A DNA stretch of 64,000 nt, taken from Branchiostoma floridae. Its lineage: Eukaryota > Chordata > Leptocardii > Amphioxiformes > Branchiostomatidae. Made by a program: the position numbers and the translations under genes. The notes under the pieces are model-generated. The model worked only from the letters and a program-made list of their open reading frames with translations, was not told the origin of the DNA and ran no database searches. The stretch spans positions 17,065,375-17,129,374 of the forward strand of contig NC_049986.1 in NCBI RefSeq assembly GCF_000003815.2, given 5' to 3'. Positions 1-61,782 of this stretch are shown here, piece by piece. The number at the start of each line of letters is the position of its first letter. The first letter of the stretch is position 1.

Positions 1-2011
1 TGAACTTTGTTCTGGCAGTGGTTCAATTCTCCGCGTCCTCTGAAGGACCCTTGGCTGTTAAATCCGCATTTTTGATCTTGAACTTCGCCTGGAGTCTGGT
101 AGAGGTCCTTGGAGTTTTTGAAGAAATGTAAATCCGTTGTTTCACCCTGGCAAACGTCCATGTGTTCAGCTGCTGGGGTAAGGGTGGGTTCGCTGTCGTG
201 TTGATCACCAATGGTATAATTTGGAAGGAGTGAGTCACAACATAAACATCATTCAACATGGCGGGTCCCGGCCACACAACGGAACGATTCGGTTTTCCAG
301 CATTGCTCTGGTGTGTCGAAACCTCTCAACCACAAGCCAACAAGGTCCCCGTTTAGGAAATAAGCAACAGATGAAAAGGACAAAGAGCTGTCAATCCACC
401 CGCCGCACATGGCCCGGGGAGGACGCCATGTTTGTGTGTTTGGCTTGGCGTGGCCTACCTCATTTGCATTAAGGTTGATGGACCGCACCACTCTACACGG
501 AGGGTGGTTCGTTAACAAAGGCCGACGGTATGAAATACAGTTTGTACTGTGTATTATGCGTACTAAAACCGAAAAATGCTCAACTACACGATGCATGCGT
601 GTTTCCTTTGACAAACCTTTCTACGATCAATAAATTCTATACACCCTGGTTGTGAAAACCATTCAATTGAATTCTATTTTTTCGTGCTATGTAGTAGACT
701 GGGAAAAGACACCTGGAGCAGAAATTCGATACAAATTGCAAGAAAGAGCAACGCTTATGTAGTTGCGACTATTAGAATTAAAGATGAATTAAAGGTTTGG
801 GACAACATGAGGTCTGGTAAACCGGACGTTCGTCCGTCTCCATGAGCGATGTCAAGATGTTAATGATTGATCCCTGACAATCAGTTCTCTTGAGAATTCC
901 CGTGAAGACAACACATAACAAAGGCACTCCTTTTGTGTCTGCAAATGGATGCGATAAACACACATGGGGGCGCTCAGTAAACAATGGGAGATCAAATGTT
1001 GAATCGGAGACGAAAGATAATGGAGGAAGTCAACTACCCAAGTAGATAGTATTTCACATTACATTGCATTTTAGCTTATGATGAACACACTTGTCAGTTG
1101 AGCCTTTACCCATACTATCATGAATGTGCAAACGTTGCCGCTCACATAGACGTAAATAGAAATAGGCTATTTTAGACATGCAAGAGTATCTATATTGTTA
1201 GATCCACGGAATCTTCATATGCCTGATCATGTTATTTTATTTTGCAACACAACGGTGAACCGGTAATACATTATAACGTACTTTTTATCAAACCTCTCTG
1301 TGGACTCGTCCGGAAAGCTAATGGTCCCTCCAGCTAAATCCTCACAGGCTTTATAAATGTATATAGCCCGAGGCCAAGCTAGTAGGATCACCTTCATTGG
1401 AGTAAAGACGTTTTTGTGTTTTGTTTTCTTGTTACCATCATTATCATGTTCGCTTGCATCTATTACAGCTTGATTAATCATTTCAATACACAGTGCAGTG
1501 CACAAAGTAAGGATGTCACACATTTTATCCCTCTTCTGTATACTGTATTTATTTAAAAAAAAACAATCTTCAACAGTGAAACTTCAATACACTCGCACAG
1601 ATGGAGACCCTTAAACAAAAATACAAGCAGACAACTTCTGTTCACACTTCTCAATAAAGCACACAAAACAAACATATTTCTACAGCACTACCACAATTTT
1701 GTCCTGAAATAAAAGCTAAGTGCTATCCACCATCTATTAAATCATACAGGGACCAAAATAAGTACTCATTGATTCAAATAAAACAATTAAAGTCTGTCTT
1801 ATCTTAGTCCATGGCAGTGTCGGTGCTACAATGTTAAAGTAACCATTTCTTTCACACTTTTCTTTTCACACTTAATTTTACGTTCACAATAGATGATCTT
1901 CGTCTCCTAGATCCTCTGTTACTCTAATTCCATAAGTGTTTAAACACAAAAATGATGGCCGCTAGCGCTAAATAATAAAACTACTTTAACACCTGACATT
2001 TAAAGACATCC
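1..2011. other. Non-coding stretch left of the ATPase gene
   Basis: No convincing gene is seen. A well-placed ATG at 258 (context AACATGG) opens a 32-codon plus-strand ORF ending at 356. Overlapping short ORFs on both strands occupy 23-633, in a locally GC-richer patch that could be a first exon or promoter, but no clear donor follows. From 640 to 1970 the sequence is AT-rich with no coding signal. For the minus-strand ATPase gene that ends at 2012, a reverse AATAAA lies near 1547-1552 and could be its poly(A) signal, giving a 3' UTR of about 450 bases. That assignment is an inference. Confidence 0.5.
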
Positions 2012-3766
2012 TCATTCATCCATATTTTCATCTGAACAGTACCCACTTGGGGTACTTCCTCTATCATTGTCTCTATTGCGAAGGCGTGGCCTTCTTGTTG
2101 GAGTAGACGGTCCACCTCTGTCTTCGTTTGGTTGGCTCCTCCTCTTCTTCCTGCTGCTGCTACTTCTCCACGCCCATGTGCTACCTGTGCGAGTCGTCCT
2201 GGGGGAGACCACCAAGTACATGGTGTTGGGGTCATTGTCACTGACGGGCTCGGCCATTGCTGCAAGTTCATCACTGTCATAGATGTGGAGATGGAAGGAG
2301 CCCGATTTTGTATGAACTTGAACTTCGTCACAGTCGCGCTGGGATGATCGCGAGGGTTGGAAGCCCCACTCCACATCGTCGTCTCCGTAGGACGCCACGT
2401 ACACGAAGGCCAGCAGCACTGACGTGAAGAGATTGTTGGCCTGGTGTCGGAACAGTTGGAGCTGTTCAATCCTGTCCACTCTGTCGCGTACCTTCTCCAA
2501 CAGAAAGCCGATGTCGTGACTGTGCCCGAGCTGGTATGTGAGTCCTTGGAAGGTATGCCTGTTGTATGTCAGGAGTTTGGGTGCCTGAGCTAGGTACTGT
2601 GCGTTGGGGTTGTACGTGCCCTCGGCCTGTTCTAACAGTTCGTCATCCACCAGTTTGACCTTGGCGTCTGTCATGGCGACGTGGTCGGGCCCCTGCAGTG
2701 GGAACCGCTTCAGCCACAGCGTGAGCTCTCCCTCCGTCACAGGTTCAAGGTCCCAGAAGTCCTGGTCGGGTAGGCGGGACGCGTACTTGTAGAGCAGACA
2801 TTCCAAGATGTCCCAGTGGACGTCTGTGAAGTTCTCGCAGTTGGGGAGCCTGACTCTGTCCTGGCCTTTCTTCTCCACGAACACGGCTATCTTCCCCACT
2901 ACTCCTCCTGTGGCGTGGAAGATCCGGTCCACCTGAGCCGCGAACGGTGGTTTACCTGTAAGTGTCTCTACTAACTTTCCTACCTCTCCTTTCTTCCTGA
3001 GCGCGTACAGACGGTGTACGTTATACTTGGTGTCGTTGAGAGAGGGGTATTGTACGTACCCTCCCAGTATGTTACTAAAGGTGTCTCGCTGGAAGGCCAG
3101 GATCGTGACGAGGCGGGAGCTTCCCGTGAGCCATCCCAGGGCGTTCTTCGACTCACCTATGGAGTAAATCTGTTCTACAAACAAACGACTTCTCCGCAGT
3201 CTCTCGTGGTCTGTCTCCCCTACCTTCACGTACAGGTCCTGGATTTCGTCCACCACCACGACTGGAATGTAAGATTTCTCGTACAGAAGGTCCAGCACCA
3301 CACTGATGTCCCGTGTACCCTCTCCTTCCCCGTCCTCGCTAGTCTTGATCCCCAAACTCTTCACCTTTCTCCACAGGGCCTCGGAAGGTAACTCCCACCT
3401 CTCGGCACAGTCCACGTACACCGACACGATCTGTTTCCCCCCGAACTCTATTGCAGACAACGCCTCCAACAAACTGCAGAGTAGCGTTGTCTTACCGACC
3501 CCCCTCCTGCCGACCAGGAGTATGTTGTTACGGTTATGCCTCCCCTGCAAGACCGAGTACACGGAGTCTATGAGATCGAGCAACACATCTTTGTTTTCCT
3601 CCGACAAAAAGTATCTGGGGTTGCCTTTGCCCTGCGTCTTTTTCCACGCTTGCAACGCCTTCTCTCTCAGTTCGGCCGGCCCTGTTCTACGTTGGGGGTC
3701 CCCAGCGGAAGATCCAGCCCCCTCGAAGCCACCCCTGGCTGCCTCTTTTCCTAGAAGGTTCCCCAT
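2012..3766 (-). CDS. Intronless P-loop (AAA/STAND-like) ATPase, 584 residues
   Basis: An uninterrupted ORF encodes a P-loop NTPase. Walker A is GRRGVGKTT at residues 86-94. Walker B is VVVVDEIQD at 169-177 (Asp173, Glu174). A sensor-like LTGSSR lies at 213-218, a pattern recalling the archaeal-type ATPase (MNS) branch of STAND NTPases; ORC/Cdc6-type AAA+ is the alternative. Residues 250-400 are globular and probably include a lid or winged-helix region. Residues 420-445 could form a short coiled coil, followed by a hydrophobic patch at 446-460. The tail is basic with serine (RKKRR at 539-543, TRRPRLRNR at 557-565) and then acidic, so it may be a nuclear signal. The start MGNLLGK has a Gly at position 2 that could be myristoylated, though position 6 is Gly rather than Ser/Thr. 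The start context is strong (A at -3, G at +4). The substrate and pathway are unknown. The absence of introns in an intron-rich genome suggests retroposition, capture from a mobile element, or transfer. I do not recognise a named gene. Confidence 0.85.
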   Translation of the reverse strand: MGNLLGKEAARGGFEGAGSSAGDPQRRTGPAELREKALQAWKKTQGKGNPRYFLSEENKDVLLDLIDSVYSVLQGRHNRNNILLVGRRGVGKTTLLCSLLEALSAIEFGGKQIVSVYVDCAERWELPSEALWRKVKSLGIKTSEDGEGEGTRDISVVLDLLYEKSYIPVVVVDEIQDLYVKVGETDHERLRRSRLFVEQIYSIGESKNALGWLTGSSRLVTILAFQRDTFSNILGGYVQYPSLNDTKYNVHRLYALRKKGEVGKLVETLTGKPPFAAQVDRIFHATGGVVGKIAVFVEKKGQDRVRLPNCENFTDVHWDILECLLYKYASRLPDQDFWDLEPVTEGELTLWLKRFPLQGPDHVAMTDAKVKLVDDELLEQAEGTYNPNAQYLAQAPKLLTYNRHTFQGLTYQLGHSHDIGFLLEKVRDRVDRIEQLQLFRHQANNLFTSVLLAFVYVASYGDDDVEWGFQPSRSSQRDCDEVQVHTKSGSFHLHIYDSDELAAMAEPVSDNDPNTMYLVVSPRTTRTGSTWAWRSSSSRKKRRSQPNEDRGGPSTPTRRPRLRNRDNDRGSTPSGYCSDENMDE

Positions 3767-3880
3767 CTTGATCTAAATCCACCCGGGACGGCCGATGTCG
3801 GCTCTTACCTGCTGTACCGACGCGCTGGGTCAGCTCTGCTGTGTACAAAAATGGCGTACGCTGCCTGGGCATGCCCTTTG

Positions 3881-3942
3881 TGACGTCATTATCTAAACAA
3901 AGAAAACGCTGGGTCATAACGCCCTCTCGCAACTTTTATATA
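3881..3942 (-). promoter_or_regulatory. Core promoter of the ATPase gene: TATA box, CRE
   Basis: Read on the minus strand, TATATAAAAG lies at 3942-3933, which predicts transcription start near 3910. That leaves a leader of about 145 bases before the ATG at 3766. A perfect CRE palindrome TGACGTCA sits at 3881-3888, just downstream of the predicted start. A YY1-like CGCCATTTT lies at 3847-3855. The leader contains ATGs at 3889 (19 codons) and 3872 (overlapping the main start out of frame), plus a good donor-like CAG|GTAAGAG near 3813. Translational control or an alternative first exon is therefore possible. The TATA box and CRE are seen directly; their use is inferred. Confidence 0.6.
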
Positions 3943-4986
3943 AACTGCAGGTGTTTCTAGCCGTAGCCTTATTCTAACCGCGGTCACATCCTCGTGGTAA
4001 CAACCTGACGGCTTTGCTGCCCGTAAACTATGAAAAAAATGGGCCTGGCGGCGCCACTATCCTTTGTCTGATTTCGCAACCCCATTTGGACAAAAAGGGT
4101 GGAGTTAGTTATAACGGCACGCCTGAGACCATTTGATATATATAGTAAAACCTCTGCCTGAAAGCCAACACAGTACAGGTCACCATACGACTCGGATATG
4201 TCTATAATCTTGCAACAGTTTTCCATGAAAGAGTTTTAAGGCCACGACTTGGCTGTAGTACTGGCACGGAAGGATATGATGAAGGCGTCCGATAACAATG
4301 CATTGCTATGCGCAGACGTCTCGTAACAATCTCCTAATAATGATTCGACCCCCCGTCCAAGTCCTAGAGGATTGTCGACGATGCGGACGCATCTCTGCAG
4401 AGAAGAATGTCGTGGAGTGGAAAGTTAAAAGAGAAACTCTCCGTTGCGTTTCAAAGGTGCAAAGAGGAATTATTGTCTAGTCATGGAAAGTTTTAGATAC
4501 TATCTACACCGGCGATCTGTAACGCCTACGTGCTTTCACTTTGGACATCAGCAAGTACGTAAAACACGGGATTTAGGACTTCAACAAAGTCATTAGTTCA
4601 CTGAGTTCGACCCAAAAGCTGGCCCTCTGCTCGGATTGGGGATAGTTAATCCCACAACGTGCTTTAATCTCCCTTTAAAAGGCTTCACTTAGCGGATAAA
4701 GTTGCTCGCTAAGAGCCTCTGCGTTTGCCAACTAATACCCACCTCGTGCATGTTCATGGGTGATACCGCCGTTTGGAAATATTTCCCCGGAGTGTCGCTG
4801 ACGATAAGAGCTTTTTCTTCCGGCGCCGTCTGATACTGTTACTCCTCAGATCCGATCTTCCGGGGAAGGAAAAAAGGTCGCTTTCCCGGTCCCAATCCAC
4901 CCCCGTGTGTGCAGTCGTGACTGCTGTAGTTTTCCTGTAACCTTATCCACGCACTCCGCTGAACTTCTGAGGAAGAGAGTTCCCTT
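3943..4986. other. Intergenic, nothing recognised
   Basis: Short ORFs exist on both strands (for example 3984-4226 minus and 4298-4480 plus) but none has a domain, plausible composition or splice context. I see no repeat pair within this stretch. It separates the TATA-driven ATPase gene from an inverted-repeat element that starts at about 4987. Confidence 0.5.
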
Positions 4987-5293
4987 TACCAGGCTCCGCG
5001 GATTGTTGGTCTAAAAGTAGAAATTAGGCAAAAAGAGTCAATAGTACGGTAGGGGAGTCGGCCGGCCAGAGGAGTTATTTCCTTACCGCGAAGTCTGTGC
5101 GGTATCGCCATCTCAACCTCCTTGATCTTCTTTGAAGACTGGTGAGGAAATGATAAATAATGATAATAATAATAGCCTTTATTGCACATTCATGCTCGAT
5201 CGGGCAAAGTACAGTATAACTCCTCTGGCCGGCTGACTAACCTACCGTACTGTTGACTCTATTTGTCCAATTTCGGATCCACGGAGCCTGGTA
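4987..5293. mobile_element. Inverted-repeat element (MITE-like), about 307 bp
   Basis: The left arm (4988-5076) and the right arm (5218-5293, reversed) match over about 75-85 bases. Shared blocks include ACCAGGCTCCG, AGAGTCAA.AGTACGGTAGG and GCCGGCCAGAGGAGTT. The left arm carries about 12 extra bases and both have scattered substitutions, so it is an old copy. The centre contains an ATAATAATAATAG run followed by CCTTTATTG, a tail style seen in many invertebrate repeats. No ORF. I could not define a target-site duplication, so the superfamily is unknown. Confidence 0.7.
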
Positions 5294-5339
5294 GATGCTA
5301 GTATAACAGACATAACACCCCCACACTGTCTTCCAGTTT

Positions 5340-5503
5340 CAGGCATCTAAATAGACAGGGAAAGTTTAGTGCTCTTTTTGATTGCAATATATGTTATTAT
5401 CGTGTCATAGCGAGGCCTTTCGGAAAGACAAGTTGTAGAGGTGACCCATCACCTGTTTTGTCTCACCCTCCATTTTGTAACGGAAAGTTCAATAAACAAA
5501 TAA
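5340..5503 (+). mobile_element. Possible LINE-like 3' tail
   Basis: This segment ends with AATAAACAAATAAAC at 5491-5505 after a T-rich and pyrimidine-rich run, resembling the 3' UTR end of a non-LTR retrotransposon. A similar AAATAAACAAATAG ending occurs at 35993-36005. There is no adjacent reverse-transcriptase ORF. It could equally be a gene's 3' UTR. Confidence 0.3.
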
Positions 5504-5529
5504 ACATAAAAATAGATGCGATAAACTGA

Positions 5530-8500
5530 TAATTTATGCAACAAATATTGATTTAGTGCACTTTATTTTACTCCGAGCTTCGAGTACCTCGAGTACCTCA
5601 GCTTCCACCACGCAAAAGTTCCCTGTACGAATTACGCTAGCCAGATTGGCCCAAATTACTACCACTGATGTATTTGATTGCCCCAGACCAATTTCCCACC
5701 CAGGAAGCCTCGGAAGAAGAGCACACAACCTGTTGATGGTGGCTCTATTAGTCTGGCGTAAAATCCATACCAACACGGGTCGTCAGTCATGCTGGAAATT
5801 AATTACTTTTGCCGCGGATGAGGCTCGGAGGACGGATCGGTGGGACTCCGTGGGAGGGTATCAATGGATCTTTGGTTTACTGAAGCTATGTGCCACACAC
5901 TGGTTTTCACGATTGATTAGGTCGTGGGCACTGGAATGGTATAGTAGATGGAGAAAGAATACTCAAATCCTATCCTAAAGCCCGTTACAGATGACCGGTT
6001 TAAGTTGCTAGTACTTGCTACCCTTACGTATATCCCAGATTTTTCCCTGATGAGCGACGAAATTGTGGTTTACTTTGACCCACCGTTGTGCAGCATAGTT
6101 TTTTGAGCAGAAAAATTGGCTTTTGGGGCCACAAACTTTACCTAAACGAAGAAAAATGTCAATACGGACCTAATGCTGACTTGAATATATACGCACAAGT
6201 GTAAACGAGCCCTTAGCCACAGCCAAGAGCATCCTGTAGCTTATACTCCCGAGAAATCGTGCATTTTGTTTTTAGACATAAACTCGATTTCTACCGGGGT
6301 CTCCTTGCACTCGCTGCCCTAAAAAATTAGGAATCGGATGGTTGTCTTTACCTGGATATATATGAATTCAGTATGCATTTTCTCGTTTCTCCCTTTACAA
6401 TCGGAAGTTCGAAGTCAACACCCTACAGATGTATATATTGCATTTACGACTCGATGGTATCCATTCCCAAAGGTTGACTAACCCCTCTGTATGTTTGTTT
6501 TTACGTTCTGTTCGCCCCCTCTTAGATCGATAGCGCACACGAACTTCGTTTAATGGCCTCAGGTGCCCGGCAGGGAACAACAAATATTGCTTCGTTCTGC
6601 CTTCTTGTGGTAGTTCATCCTGTTCCTGATAAATCACGAAGCACGGGAGATATCTAATAGTATGATGTTGAAATCGCGCTGGGTATAAAGAAGTCTCTAC
6701 CAAACTGACTACGCTCGCCATTCTAGGGAGAATAATTTGCCAGGGGAGTTTTGTTACCAAGGAGTCTGGAGGGGAAACATGAATCTAAGCGCGGACTGGC
6801 TCCCCCGGTCAATTTCCCGGTTTTTTTTGCCAAATTCTAAAATCCCCGAACCCCCGTAGGACGGCCTGGTGGAGGCTAGATATAGAGTTGGGTTAGATAT
6901 AATGTCTTTTCCTGAATGACCCCAATTCAGACGGCTTCCTGTATTCTTGGAATTTCCGTTTCTCCTTAAGAAAGGCTCTGAGGAAGTGACGTATTGTGCA
7001 ACAAGCTTTATCCTTCTTAAAGTGAGATAAAGTGTTTCCCCCTTTTAATAGCCTCTCTTGACGTTATACGAGAAACACGAAAACAGTGCTTAGACCGGGT
7101 TGGTAGGACACCCCCACGTAATCATAACTGGTTCTCCCCAGAGACTGGGTACTTGCCAATACTCTGGAGTCGTGATCAGTGAAGTACTTTTGCGTGTAAT
7201 GTTAGAACGAGTCGGGTGGAGTTCGATCTACCAAAAACAACACGGGAGCTTGTAAGCGGCGATGAAGTTCATGATAAGACCACGTAACGGCCTATTGAAT
7301 GGAAAAATACCTTCATCGGTACCCCCAGCGTAGAGTAAGCATAAAAATGGGAGACAAATGAAAGGAAAACAAAAACTATAGAAAATATCTCTTACATTTG
7401 CATTTAAATCCTTCCTATACACTATAGTCAAATATCTTTCATGAGATCATAGGGATTTGTTTTTCATCACTCTTGCATCTGCCTTGTCCCCTTGATTTTT
7501 ATATTGTCATGTAGCGTAACAAAAGATGGATATTTATAGCGCTATCCTCTGGTGTCGACGTCTAGTCAGCGGATGTGGCAAAGTATCTGAACAAAGAACA
7601 CTCAGAAGGAAGGGACGATTGAATGTTTTTGAACTGTAAACCACCTGCGCCCACGGCTACCGCAATATCACCGACACACGGGCGGTAGATCGGTATCAGG
7701 TGCCGCCTCAGGTGTTAGCGCAGTACGGTAATAAGGACCTGTTCAGCCTTCCATAGCGGGCTGGTGATGTGGACTGTCAACAGTATAACACCATGTACTA
7801 TTTGTGGTGGATCCGGGACACACGCTTCAAAATTTTTTGACGTCAAACAATAAGTTGAGAAATTAAAATCTGAAGAAATGGGTATCATTTTGTATGACAT
7901 TTATATCTGTTTGTTATCATTCATCTTAGAAATATTCACTGATGGTATATTCAGTACAATCCGTCTGCTTTGTTTATTGCTGGGAAGCGCAATGGAAACT
8001 TTGCTCGCCAAACGACAATGGTTACCCCTAGCGACCAACAGGTAATAAGTGGTCGGGCACGACGTAGCCGCCTGACATAAGGGGAGTACCGTTACTGCCA
8101 CCTAGCCACATCAGCGTCCATTCAAACAGCACTTCTATTTCGTAATGGAGAGTTTAAGATGTCATAATACCTGTCACAAGCATATTATCTTGGCTACAGA
8201 ATCGCTACATATAAATCGTTTGATATCCTACCCTCCTGCGACCCTATAATGAACAGTAACGTACTGTCCCTTAAGTCCCTATCGCAGTCAAGTGATTGGG
8301 ACCTTGCAGTGACGACGAGGGTCCCCGGAGAGAACCCGTGCCTGTACCTGTGTGTCTGAACGTACCTGTAGACGACCTGTTGGTAAGCCATGTAGCTCTT
8401 CTAGATCCGGTGTGCCATAAGCAGGTGAGAAGAACGTAAATCTCAACCGTCATTACGATAGTTCTACCTGTTGATTCACAAGGGGTTTTGCAAGTATCCA

Positions 8501-9998: not shown

Positions 9999-10192
9999 GT
10001 GCAGAAAAGTGCGGTACTACGAAAAAGTGTGGTACTATGAAGTCATTTGCATAAAATAGGGCAACGCTTTTTTTTCATAGCACAACACTTTTTTCATAGT
10101 GCAACCCCTTTTCATAGTGCAACCCTTTTTCATAGTATCACACTTTTTCATAGTACAACATTTTTTTCATAGTACAACACGTTTTCTGCACC
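9999..10192. repeat. Degenerate minisatellite bounded by inverted ends
   Basis: A unit of about 18-22 bases with the core TTTTTCATAGTGCAAC is repeated at least six times between about 10070 and 10180, with T-run length differences. The segment starts with GTGCAGAAAA (9999-10008) and ends with the inverse TTTTCTGCAC (10182-10191). The first part (10006-10040) carries the same unit in inverted orientation. The whole can fold back, consistent with a small non-autonomous element with tandem expansion. Confidence 0.65.
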
Positions 10193-24949: not shown

Positions 24950-25081
24950 TAGCCTGGAATCCAGCCGTATTGTGCTTTGGTCGCTCCCCTGAGGTACGCT
25001 TCCTGCCAATACACAATACAATACAATAGTTCGCACAGGAAGCAGAGCGACCAAAGCACAACACGGCTGGATTCCAGGCTA
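24950..25081. mobile_element. Foldback MITE, 132 bp, with 9-11 bp target duplication
   Basis: The terminal inverted repeats are 37 bases with one mismatch, starting TAGCCTGGAATCCAGCCGT on each strand. CAATGACAC is present directly on both sides (24941-24949 and 25082-25090), and the match extends to 11 bases if the outer T/A is counted as target. The two halves also pair further in (CGCTTCCTG / CAGGAAGC), so the whole element folds. A 9-base duplication would fit a Mutator-like origin; that is inference. Confidence 0.85.
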
Positions 25082-37231: not shown

Positions 37232-38572
37232 ATGATAATGGACTACCCGGTCAGCGGGCGGCGCTGCTTGAAACCTGCATCCCTCCGTGAACAGAACCAA
37301 CCATTTGACTCTGTTTCCAGAAACGTTACGCGCCGTCCTGCCGTGGAGAGTTGGCTGAACCAGTCCTACACACCCGACATTCTGCAGGGAGGACTGAATA
37401 TGACGTCCAGGCCAGATTTCCCACCTACACCATCCTCGGCGCCCTTCTACGATTTGGACTATATGAAGCCGCCGATCGACCATAAACGATATATCCTCGT
37501 TTCTATTGCGCTCATCATCATATTTGGTCTTCTGGCGTGGCTGATCATCTTGCTACTAATGAGATACCGGGATCAGCATGGAAGATGGTTTTGGAAGCCT
37601 GATTTAGGCAGACTGTTTCGCGGAAGATTGCAAGGATGCCGGAATTTTCTACGAGGCCGCTTCTCGAGGGATTCAAGCTTCAGAGGCGGCTACCCGCACG
37701 AACGTTCATTTGGCGTGGGGAATTCGAATGAAACTGCGTTTAGGGGTGGCTTCCCTCACGAGAGTACAATAGGAGATGGCTTTATTCCGGAGCCCTGTAT
37801 GAGAGGAAGCTTCCCACACACACCGACGTTATCAGATACACTTCCACGGAAACCCCGCGAATCACACATACGCCTACATCGCTGTTACACGATAGCCGGG
37901 GATATACACCCTTGGACAACCGCCCAGGATTACGGGGCGCAACAGGCTTCATCAGTTAACGCCGGACGGCGATTCTCAAGAAGCAGCAGCGTCGATTCAA
38001 GGGACGGTTACCTGCGCAATGCTACCTCGCAGGCAGACCTAAGAGATGGCCCGCCCTCCCTACATCCCGCGCAACCTATCATGAGTACAGAGGAATTTGT
38101 ACCGCAGTATGATCCTTCGAGAAGACCCTCAGGCAACACGAAACGCACAAAAATTCAAAGGCAATACTCCTTTTCTTACGAGCATTACGGGGAGGTTCCA
38201 TTATGGCTTGCAAGCCATACATTCAACACGGAACAGATCGCGGTGCATAATTACGGGCAGCCCCCACCGAGCCCACCGGACGACACGCCAACCATGGACG
38301 CCAGGTATGACGTTATGTACGAGCAGTACGGCTCAGACGAGCCGCCCGGCGGACTGGAAGCGCACCAATTAGACACGGCTATGGTGATAACTACGGCAGA
38401 TCCTCTGACCATGAGCCCCGAGCAGGCACCTGTGCTGACGTCCGCGGGGACGGATGCATCAAACATGCTGAAGCAGAACTGCACCGTGTGGATGCAAACC
38501 GAGCATCGCAGACCAGATCGGATATCTCCTGTAAGACAGTCATCAACAGCCTCAATAGAAACGACTGTCTGA
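37232..38572 (+). CDS. Single-pass membrane protein with tandem cytoplasmic repeats and PDZ ligand, 446 residues
   Basis: One exon, preceded by an acceptor at 37208 and a 23-base untranslated part with an in-frame TGA just before the ATG, encodes the whole protein. A second ATG two codons on (37238) has the better context. Residues 1-85 form a Pro/Ser-rich segment with sequons at Asn31, Asn43 and Asn56. Residues 87-110 are the only transmembrane helix. There is no signal peptide, so a type III topology (N out, C in) is likely. Residues 149-208 hold three 20-residue repeats with the core FRGG[YF]PHE. Further on are RRFSRSSSVDS (basophilic kinase or 14-3-3 style), two related tyrosine blocks (YEHYGE, YEQYGSDE) and PPPSPPDD (SH3-like). 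The C terminus ETTV is a class I PDZ ligand. The function is probably a membrane scaffold or adaptor, which is inferred. No named family is recognised. Confidence 0.8.
   Translation: MIMDYPVSGRRCLKPASLREQNQPFDSVSRNVTRRPAVESWLNQSYTPDILQGGLNMTSRPDFPPTPSSAPFYDLDYMKPPIDHKRYILVSIALIIIFGLLAWLIILLLMRYRDQHGRWFWKPDLGRLFRGRLQGCRNFLRGRFSRDSSFRGGYPHERSFGVGNSNETAFRGGFPHESTIGDGFIPEPCMRGSFPHTPTLSDTLPRKPRESHIRLHRCYTIAGDIHPWTTAQDYGAQQASSVNAGRRFSRSSSVDSRDGYLRNATSQADLRDGPPSLHPAQPIMSTEEFVPQYDPSRRPSGNTKRTKIQRQYSFSYEHYGEVPLWLASHTFNTEQIAVHNYGQPPPSPPDDTPTMDARYDVMYEQYGSDEPPGGLEAHQLDTAMVITTADPLTMSPEQAPVLTSAGTDASNMLKQNCTVWMQTEHRRPDRISPVRQSSTASIETTV
37676..37855 (+). repeat. Three 60-base coding repeats inside the 446-residue protein
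   Basis: Residues 149-168, 169-188 and 189-208 share the core [SAC][FM]RG[GS][YF]PH[ET] at exact 20-residue spacing. The third copy is more diverged. Spacing by whole codons shows the duplication kept the frame, supporting that the ORF is translated. Confidence 0.7.
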
Positions 38573-46814: not shown

Positions 46815-48008
46815 ATAGTAATCATAACCCCTGTCGTTCTATTTACTTCTGCCATTTATATGAGCTGACAGTGCTGTAATGAAATACTGCCAATGAACCT
46901 GATCAACTCAGGGGGGAATATTGTCAGTCGTTGAATAGGATTGACAGGTTGTGCCAAAAGATTCTATCTGAAACTAATTTGCACAATTCTCCAGTCGACG
47001 TTGGTTGAAGTAGATTGAACTGTAAACCACGTGGGAAGGTCCTGATAAATGACAAGATAGGCATTGTTAGACATTATCGGCAGCTTGAAATCCTTTGGGT
47101 TTAAGAAACTTTAAAATTGATGACTAACTCTTCTCAAACTGAACGTTTCGTCAGAGTCACGAAGAAGAATCATGATCAAAGCAACGCCACCCACTCTACG
47201 TGTCGTTCCAGTTCTTTTCCATAGGGGGCATCATTAGACTACACCTTGCCTCATCTTTAAGAGCGAGGTTTGATGGTGAATCTCATATTTTACAGAATGA
47301 CTATGAATGATTTTCTTCATAACCTAGTTTTAAACTTTGGTTCTGTTTTTATATGCAAACCATGTTTCCTCTTAATCAACAATTCGTCCCCAACATGAAG
47401 AAAGAGAATGATTGCGACTAAGATATCATTACCCCACTTCACTATTGTCATGCCCTCTAATCATAATCATCCTTTGGCAGAAACTCATTTTTCCTAGTTT
47501 TCTTCCTTGTTCATTCCGTAAATGGTGCACAGTTAACGTTCCAGCCGTATGTTACGGTTGCTTGTCTGTATGTCTATAGAAAGTCATGTTACATTGTTCA
47601 GCGACGTCTATGGGTTTTTAAGATACTAAATCGTCATCATTTTTACAGTTTTGATGGTGCTAGAGTATTAAGTAGACATAGAAAACAAGGCCAAACAAGT
47701 TTCTGTGAAAGGTCCATCAGGGAGCGTGACAATTGTAAAGTGGGGTAATGATCTGATCGAGTAGTCTGTAGGTTGTTAGAAAAGTGATTAAGGAATCGGA
47801 ACTCGATACGTTAACGAGAATTTCATTGATATATAGTGGACATGATTATGTCGAGCAAATGAAGTCCCCTCAAAAGAGGTCACACGCACTCCGTAGGCAT
47901 ACGTCAATATTCCAAATTGTTCCTTGTCTTCAAGAAGAGCAGATAAGACCATGTGTTGGGTATAACAGTGGTCCATCCGAGTTCAACTGACTTATACCTC
48001 CTCCCACT
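46815..48008. other. Non-coding with one weak Penelope-like motif
   Basis: At about 47141-47168, read on the minus strand, TTCTTCGTGACTCTGACGAA is followed by ACGTT. The GAAACGTT box resembles the end of Penelope/hammerhead-like motifs, but the first box is not intact. The rest shows no coding signal. Confidence 0.3.
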
Positions 48009-53068: not shown

Positions 53069-53211
53069 CCCCCCCCCCCAAAAAAACAACCCCGTTCGGC
53101 CAGCAATCTAAGATTTGTATTGTCAATACAAATCTTAGATTGCTGGCAATACAAATCTTAGATTGCTGGCTGAACGGGGTTGTTTTCTTTTTGGGGGGGG
53201 GGGGGGGGGGG
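53069..53211. repeat. Foldback unit abutting the assembly gap
   Basis: A C run (53069-53079), A run and CAACCCCGTTCGGC are mirrored by GAACGGGGTTG, a T-rich run and a 19-base G run (53193-53211). Inside, the 23-mer starting CCAGCAATCTAAG (53100-53122) is followed by two tandem inverse copies (53124-53146 and 53147-53169). The G run ends exactly at the gap, which suggests the structure stopped assembly. Part of it could be an assembly artefact. Confidence 0.8.
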
Positions 53212-53311
53212 NNNNNNNNNNNNNNNNNNNNNNNNNNNNNNNNNNNNNNNNNNNNNNNNNNNNNNNNNNNNNNNNNNNNNNNNNNNNNNNNNNNNNNNNN
53301 NNNNNNNNNNN
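53212..53311. other. 100-N scaffold gap
   Basis: Exactly 100 N. The round number is the usual placeholder for a gap of unknown size, so distances across it are unreliable. Confidence 0.98.
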
Positions 53312-61554: not shown

Positions 61555-61782
61555 AGGTGGTACCTCACTGCACTTGCGTCAAGCTTGTGTCACTGCGGGG
61601 TTCGTTCACTGCGTCACCGTTTTGTTATTTTTTTTCATGAATTTATATTGCGTAATACGTAAAAGTATGACTTAGAAGATGACAAATACACAAAAAGTAA
61701 TACTTTATCTCTGAAATTCGTTGAGTATTTTTCCAACCCCGCAGTGACGCAAGCGTGACGCAAGTGCAATGAGATACCACTT
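61555..61782. mobile_element. TIR element related to the one at 55.4 kb, 228 bp
   Basis: The left end AGGTGGTACCTCACTGCACT and following GCGTCA..CTTG.GTCACTGCGGGG are mirrored at 61737-61782. The CACTGCGGGGTTCGTTCAC block is shared with the 55.4 kb element. The flanks here are not a clean TTAA, so insertion details are uncertain. The interior is AT-rich with no ORF. Confidence 0.8.

Follow-up and report, generated by a model that had tools for sequence, protein, structure and literature searches.

The window, by which we mean the whole 64-kb stretch of the Branchiostoma floridae genome analysed here (G000:C8:17065375-17129374), carries close to its left end an open frame of 584 codons on the minus strand, gene A. 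A second frame on the same strand, gene B, lies just to the left of the window, and the coding regions of the two are 2,046 bp apart. The features of the pair, with the kind of evidence behind each, are as follows.

2012..3766, minus strand: gene A (protein P0001), 584 codons plus stop, an open frame in the 64-kb window
3936..3942, minus strand: candidate TATA box of gene A, from its motif only
1548..1553, minus strand: candidate poly(A) signal AATAAA of gene A, from its motif only
2567..3685, minus strand: residues 28-400, common to gene B in three segments at 37-42% identity, from local alignment
3488..3511, minus strand: Walker A motif, GRRGVGKT, residues 86-93
3245..3262, minus strand: Walker B motif, VVVVDE, residues 169-174
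3116..3127, minus strand: TGSS motif, residues 214-217 (TGST in the paralogue)
2177..2566, minus strand: C-terminal module, residues 401-530, without detectable similarity to the gene B nuclease, from local alignment and profiles
2015..2176, minus strand: basic low-complexity tail, residues 531-584, with KKRR at 540, from the sequence
1..2011, minus strand: spacer between gene A and gene B, the ATG of gene B being 36 bp left of base 1
G000:C8:17063639-17065339, left of the window, minus strand: gene B, 566 aa from its ATG, uninterrupted, from the genome search and its frame

The frame of gene A, described in the preliminary description as an uninterrupted run of 584 codons, is real: its stop-free run reaches 586 codons, whereas 300 shuffles of positions 2001-4000 that preserve dinucleotides gave longest runs of 142 codons on average and of 271 at most. 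GC content at codon positions 1, 2 and 3 is 0.57, 0.41 and 0.67, and the 2-kb block with the gene has a GC content of 0.544 versus 0.367-0.458 in the other 31 blocks. An in-frame TAG is located 9 bases 5' of the ATG. A codon log-odds score with two other window frames as its training set distinguishes gene A only weakly from other frames, its frame being the highest of the six in six of eight blocks (the exceptions are residues 74-146 and 220-292). The gene had also been called intronless. The uninterrupted frame and the lack of any acceptor-like site above the scoring limit between 4000 and 1400 favour this, against two donor-like sites in the region, one in the leader (3809) and one inside the open frame (3157), all scored with a consensus matrix; hence, introns are likely, rather than proved, to be absent.

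Two other signals fall within this region. A perfect, CRE-like TGACGTCA is found at 3881-3888, downstream of the TATA box and ahead of the start codon. ARAGORN places a tRNA-Ser at 2284-2377 (+), antisense to the coding region of gene A; Rfam gave nothing at gathering score, and the tRNA call is most likely a false positive.

Gene A had been portrayed as sitting alone, and this is not the case, given the 566-aa paralogue next to it and another long frame in the window, at 37232-38572 (+), which stays open for 446 codons. The latter frame contains a stretch that looks by eye like a membrane span, and its best Pfam match has an E of 0.13. Pfam searches with sets of six and ten other window frames (one of them in both sets) gave nothing better than E 0.035. 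Inverted-repeat pairs with arms of 37-46 nt that are 84-97% complementary occur at 24950-25081, 61557-61780, and 47425-47752 (three of the seven listed across the window), and there is an array of 18-19 bp units at 10005-10186 with an adjoining inverted block. The assembly has a run of N at about 53210-53310 (position taken from translated frames), beside a G-rich stretch.

When the gene A protein was searched against its own genome (431 contigs totalling 513,431,437 bases) at E up to 10, exon by exon and with the best candidates scored (here both of the two), the two matches were gene A itself and gene B. The match to gene B (C8:17064068-17065306) covers residues 34-431 with 38% identity and an E of 6.8e-72, so that the search for paralogues, one of the checks suggested for this gene, yielded one in the genome, in tandem. 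In the coordinates of L003, gene B occupies 4140-5840 (-) and base 1 of the window is 5876. No third copy was found by tblastn at E up to 1 in the window and in the stretches fetched to about 35 kb to its left, where the only additional match of the A and B proteins spans 18 residues (E 0.23). On the same side, L014 (G000:C8:17030501-17040500) contains a 374-codon minus-strand frame that is reverse transcriptase-like by eye.

Gene B ends in a nuclease domain. Its residues 437-535 match PDDEXK_9 (PF08011) with an E of 5.1e-14 and 52.6 bits (cut-off 25.5), and it scores 40.6 bits (E 1.1e-14 for a search size of 1) against a home-built nuclease profile, in the alignment to which the helix Glu, GR-D, and FE-K positions are present. 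The PD-(D/E)XK catalytic pattern of gene B thus looks intact at the sequence level. This profile was built from seven bacterial and viral relatives (L006-L012, the start of L006 being incomplete). Five of the 12 plasmid matches listed (of 42 matching records) were retrieved, with the mite-symbiont and skin-bacterium matches deliberately left out.

The first half of gene A is an ATPase in all likelihood. Pfam AAA_22 matches residues 77-199 with an E of 6.2e-8 and 33.5 bits (curated cut-off 27), and AAA (PF00004) is barely over its cut-off (21.3 of 21.2). AAA_14, ATPase_2, and AAA_16 are under theirs, ATPase_2 reaching 22.0 of 33.2 in gene A and, slightly under the same cut-off, 30.5 bits in the ATPase of gene B. 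PADLOC and PHROGs contributed weak matches to P-loop regions (best E 0.003). With AAA_22 above its cut-off and the Walker A, Walker B, and TGSS motifs all found, the last being a mark of the STAND / MNS clade, the ATPase call of the preliminary description is borne out, and gene A is predicted to encode an AAA / P-loop ATPase. The NCBIfam orc1/cdc6 model also matches, with an E of 3.5e-6, yet at 26.1 bits against a cut-off of 181. Such a match would be expected if gene A belonged to an ordinary annotated animal family with a housekeeping role, for instance an ORC-like ATPase. Considering that no close relative was found among solved structures and that the nuclease domain of gene B would be unfit for a replication factor, this explanation is very improbable.

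Comparison of the two proteins places the end of their similarity near residue 400-410. The local scores of residues 28-75, 76-260, and 261-400 are 63, 319, and 233, none of them reached in 2000 shuffles. Residues 401-530 score 26, a value reached by 1274 of 2000 shuffles, and for the tail the score is 30, which 59 of 2000 shuffles attained. MAFFT gave 35% identity overall; identical positions number 17/46, 75/178, and 55/139 in the segments common to A and B, and 23/120 beyond them in the C-terminal module. Up to residue 400 the alignment comprises 368 codons, in which the two genes differ at 49% of first, 37% of second, and 62% of third positions. The smaller difference at position 2 than at position 3 is what is expected under selection, which suggests that the protein was kept in the duplication, and a difference at 62% of third positions argues for an old duplication. 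It might be thought that gene A is a duplicate in decay or without purpose, its frame kept by chance, since the catalytic signature is missing from it. However, a stop-free run of 586 codons whose base composition depends on codon position, and ATPase motifs that are still intact after so old a duplication, make this improbable.

The C-terminal module of gene A was compared with several collections. The nuclease profile scores -1.2 bits against the whole gene A protein, and the [EQ]xK motif is absent beyond residue 298. When the C-terminal region of A was given alone to hmmsearch with this profile it was not reported, and 748 of 1000 shuffles were; a comparison with shuffles is therefore an artefact here, the figure to be used is the -1.2 bits of the whole protein, and neither result holds a positive sign of a nuclease. 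Pfam found no family in residues 263-584, solved structures gave nothing better than E 1 for the module, fold searches gave no significant match, and PHROGs returned a family of unknown function (E 0.11-0.22). The predicted structure has a pLDDT of 56 for residues 396-528 and of 37.5 for residues 28-535. In the former, low-confidence model the last elements are a long helix followed by three strands, then a short helix and one more strand, an order that would suit a decayed nuclease core and proves little. Gene A thus appears to be devoid of a recognisable nuclease. Since the similarity is at chance level and both the nuclease profile match and the [EQ]xK motif are absent, the nuclease of gene A would have either been exchanged or decayed so far that it is no longer recognised; the module may also be a diverged, active nuclease.

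An exchange of domains, in which an unrelated effector or sensor replaced the nuclease and left gene A as a stand-alone switch with a different output, agrees with the fall of the A/B similarity to chance near residue 400-410 and with a nuclease profile unmatched in A. We regard it as somewhat unlikely, because no known domain was found in the module by Pfam, solved structures, or fold searches (the PHROGs family, at E 0.11, being one of unknown function) and because the helix-strand-strand-strand-helix-strand order of the low-confidence model is compatible with a decayed nuclease core, little as it proves. We consider it highly probable that gene A is the twin of an ATPase-PD-(D/E)XK protein and itself has no recognisable nuclease.

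Both ends of the gene A protein had been interpreted as targeting signals, a lipid anchor at the start and a nuclear signal in the tail. The Met-Gly start and the KKRR are present, and their chance frequencies mark them as weak motifs. The PROSITE-type myristoylation pattern, as applied to a Met-Gly start, fits gene A and would do so by chance in about 1.4% of cases at such composition. Shuffling the tail produces a KKRR-type motif in 8.8% of cases, and shuffling the whole protein does so in 41%. A basic C-terminal tail is common to the gene A and gene B proteins, and these tails suggest, though weakly in view of the KKRR frequencies, a nuclear location.

An origin by transfer from another lineage, also put forward earlier, finds no support in the prokaryotic, viral, phage, and plasmid collections, which gave no full-length relative. 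Pattern scans, which reach close relatives only, confirmed no relative among viral contigs (with A, B, and the A/B alignment) or among 84,980 prokaryotic species genomes (with A and the A/B alignment). Gene A gave nothing below E 3 in tblastn against phages and plasmids. With gene B, the same search found one phage record (E 0.05, residues 395-509), whose frame reads as an ATPase with a PDDEXK_9-type end, and one plasmid match (E 0.9); the C-terminal 186 residues of gene B had no match among plasmids at E up to 10.

The idea of a mobile element fared no better, as no terminal repeats could be tied to gene A. An ATPase (TniB/TnsC/IS21-like) acquired laterally or belonging to a mobile element would account for the weak Pfam matches to TniB (E 0.21) and IstB (E 0.056) and for the presence of TnsC of Tn7 among the solved structures matched (E 0.61). 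All of these matches are non-significant, no transposase tied to gene A was found either, and the A/B pair is embedded in a contig of 25.6 Mb, with prokaryotic and viral collections devoid of a full-length relative; we therefore hold this origin to be improbable as well.

Some repeats do occur near the gene. A foldback at 4987-5293, with arms 4987-5003/5277-5293 (94% complementary) and 5020-5078/5216-5274 (88%), adjoins gene A, begins and ends in TA, and looks like a small inverted-repeat transposon. A weak arm pair, 1104-1131/5182-5209 (79% over 28 nt), flanks gene A. Both were considered as terminal repeats of gene A and rejected, the sequence at 5182 matching only itself with up to three mismatches.

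The layout of gene B has counterparts in known systems. Crinkler-RHS-type (CR) proteins of eukaryotes are built as NTPase + HTH + REase (Zhang et al. 2016, as cited in PMC5289972), and section 11 of that review reports the view that regulation of the REase domain would fall to the NTPase domain. The same review describes N-terminal headers other than Ubl or LXLFLAK among CR proteins and assigns the ATPase-nuclease layout to effectors and conflict proteins of eukaryotes, including free-living ones and land plants. Gene B is similar in having a P-loop NTPase, a middle region, and then a PD-(D/E)XK (REase-type) nuclease in a genome of eukaryote size, whereas gene A differs in missing a recognisable C-terminal REase-type nuclease, the comparison being one of layout and description. 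As regards the NTPase, which in CR proteins is of the CDC6/ORC1-STAND type, gene A has a sub-threshold orc1/cdc6 match and an AAA_22 match above cut-off, to be set against a CR set known by description. No header of the Ubl / LXLFLAK type is seen in gene A, the LXLFLAK motif being absent on reading residues 1-60; since other headers exist, this is compatible with the CR class.

DUF1703 proteins combine PF09820 with PF08011, are spread across bacteria, and have a role given as undetermined in PMC6387759. They are like gene B in their N-terminal ATPase and clear PDDEXK_9 end, but their ATPase half is unmatched by both A (-0.8 bits) and B (4.1 bits). Among the 25 of 26 Pfam matches listed for gene A there is no Crinkler model, no PF09820, and no PF08011; gene B has PF08011 alone. 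The profile search proposed for STAND, AAA+, and Crinkler-type families was thus successful for AAA_22, with ATPase_2 remaining under its cut-off and no Crinkler model among the matches listed, and the Crinkler lead itself proved useful. STAND / MNS ATPases (Pfam ATPase_2, AAA_14, AAA_22) share with gene A the Walker A, the DE Walker B, the TGSS-type motif, and the AAA_22 match. They differ from A and B, in both of which ATPase_2 is under its cut-off and superstructure repeats, usual in STAND proteins, are absent among the Pfam matches shown. As the nuclease that marks both CR and DUF1703 was not found in gene A, we file it outside these two classes, as a nuclease-less relative. Judged by sequence, the pair represents an ATPase-nuclease family with a layout resembling Crinkler-RHS-type and DUF1703 proteins, one copy of which appears to have lost or exchanged its nuclease. 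A search of the literature, mostly outside subscription papers, found no description of the A/B pair.

The same ATPase in both proteins, with a cutting-type domain in B and none recognisable in A, makes A and B a possible pair of enzyme and regulator. We infer that gene A acts as an ATP-dependent partner or regulator of its nuclease twin gene B, and we would give this reading a probability of roughly 0.45. A and B would be an old tandem pair, each with an N-terminal segment, a P-loop ATPase of AAA_22 / ATPase_2 / ORC-Cdc6-like type, and a middle region, after which come a C-terminal module that varies and a tail of basic residues, the module being a nuclease in B and eroded or exchanged in A. 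From the established behaviour of such P-loop ATPases, ATP binding would drive the assembly of the A and B proteins, which would co-assemble through their common ATPase half. The non-cutting A could then dilute, inhibit, or guide B, either keeping it inactive or bringing it to nuclear DNA, with ATP hydrolysis as the switch of the complex and perhaps invading DNA as its target. In its full form this model is a two-gene animal nuclease system: an active ATPase-PD-(D/E)XK protein would join with a twin that is nuclease-dead or module-swapped, and their mixed, ATP-gated complex would control the cutting of foreign DNA in the nucleus. That form is speculative and, as a whole, unlikely, and the immune-type role suggested earlier is likewise conjectural. 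A resident tandem pair with the nuclease signature in one copy only would nevertheless provide a testable case of a host keeping and regulating such proteins, rather than of their deployment against a host.
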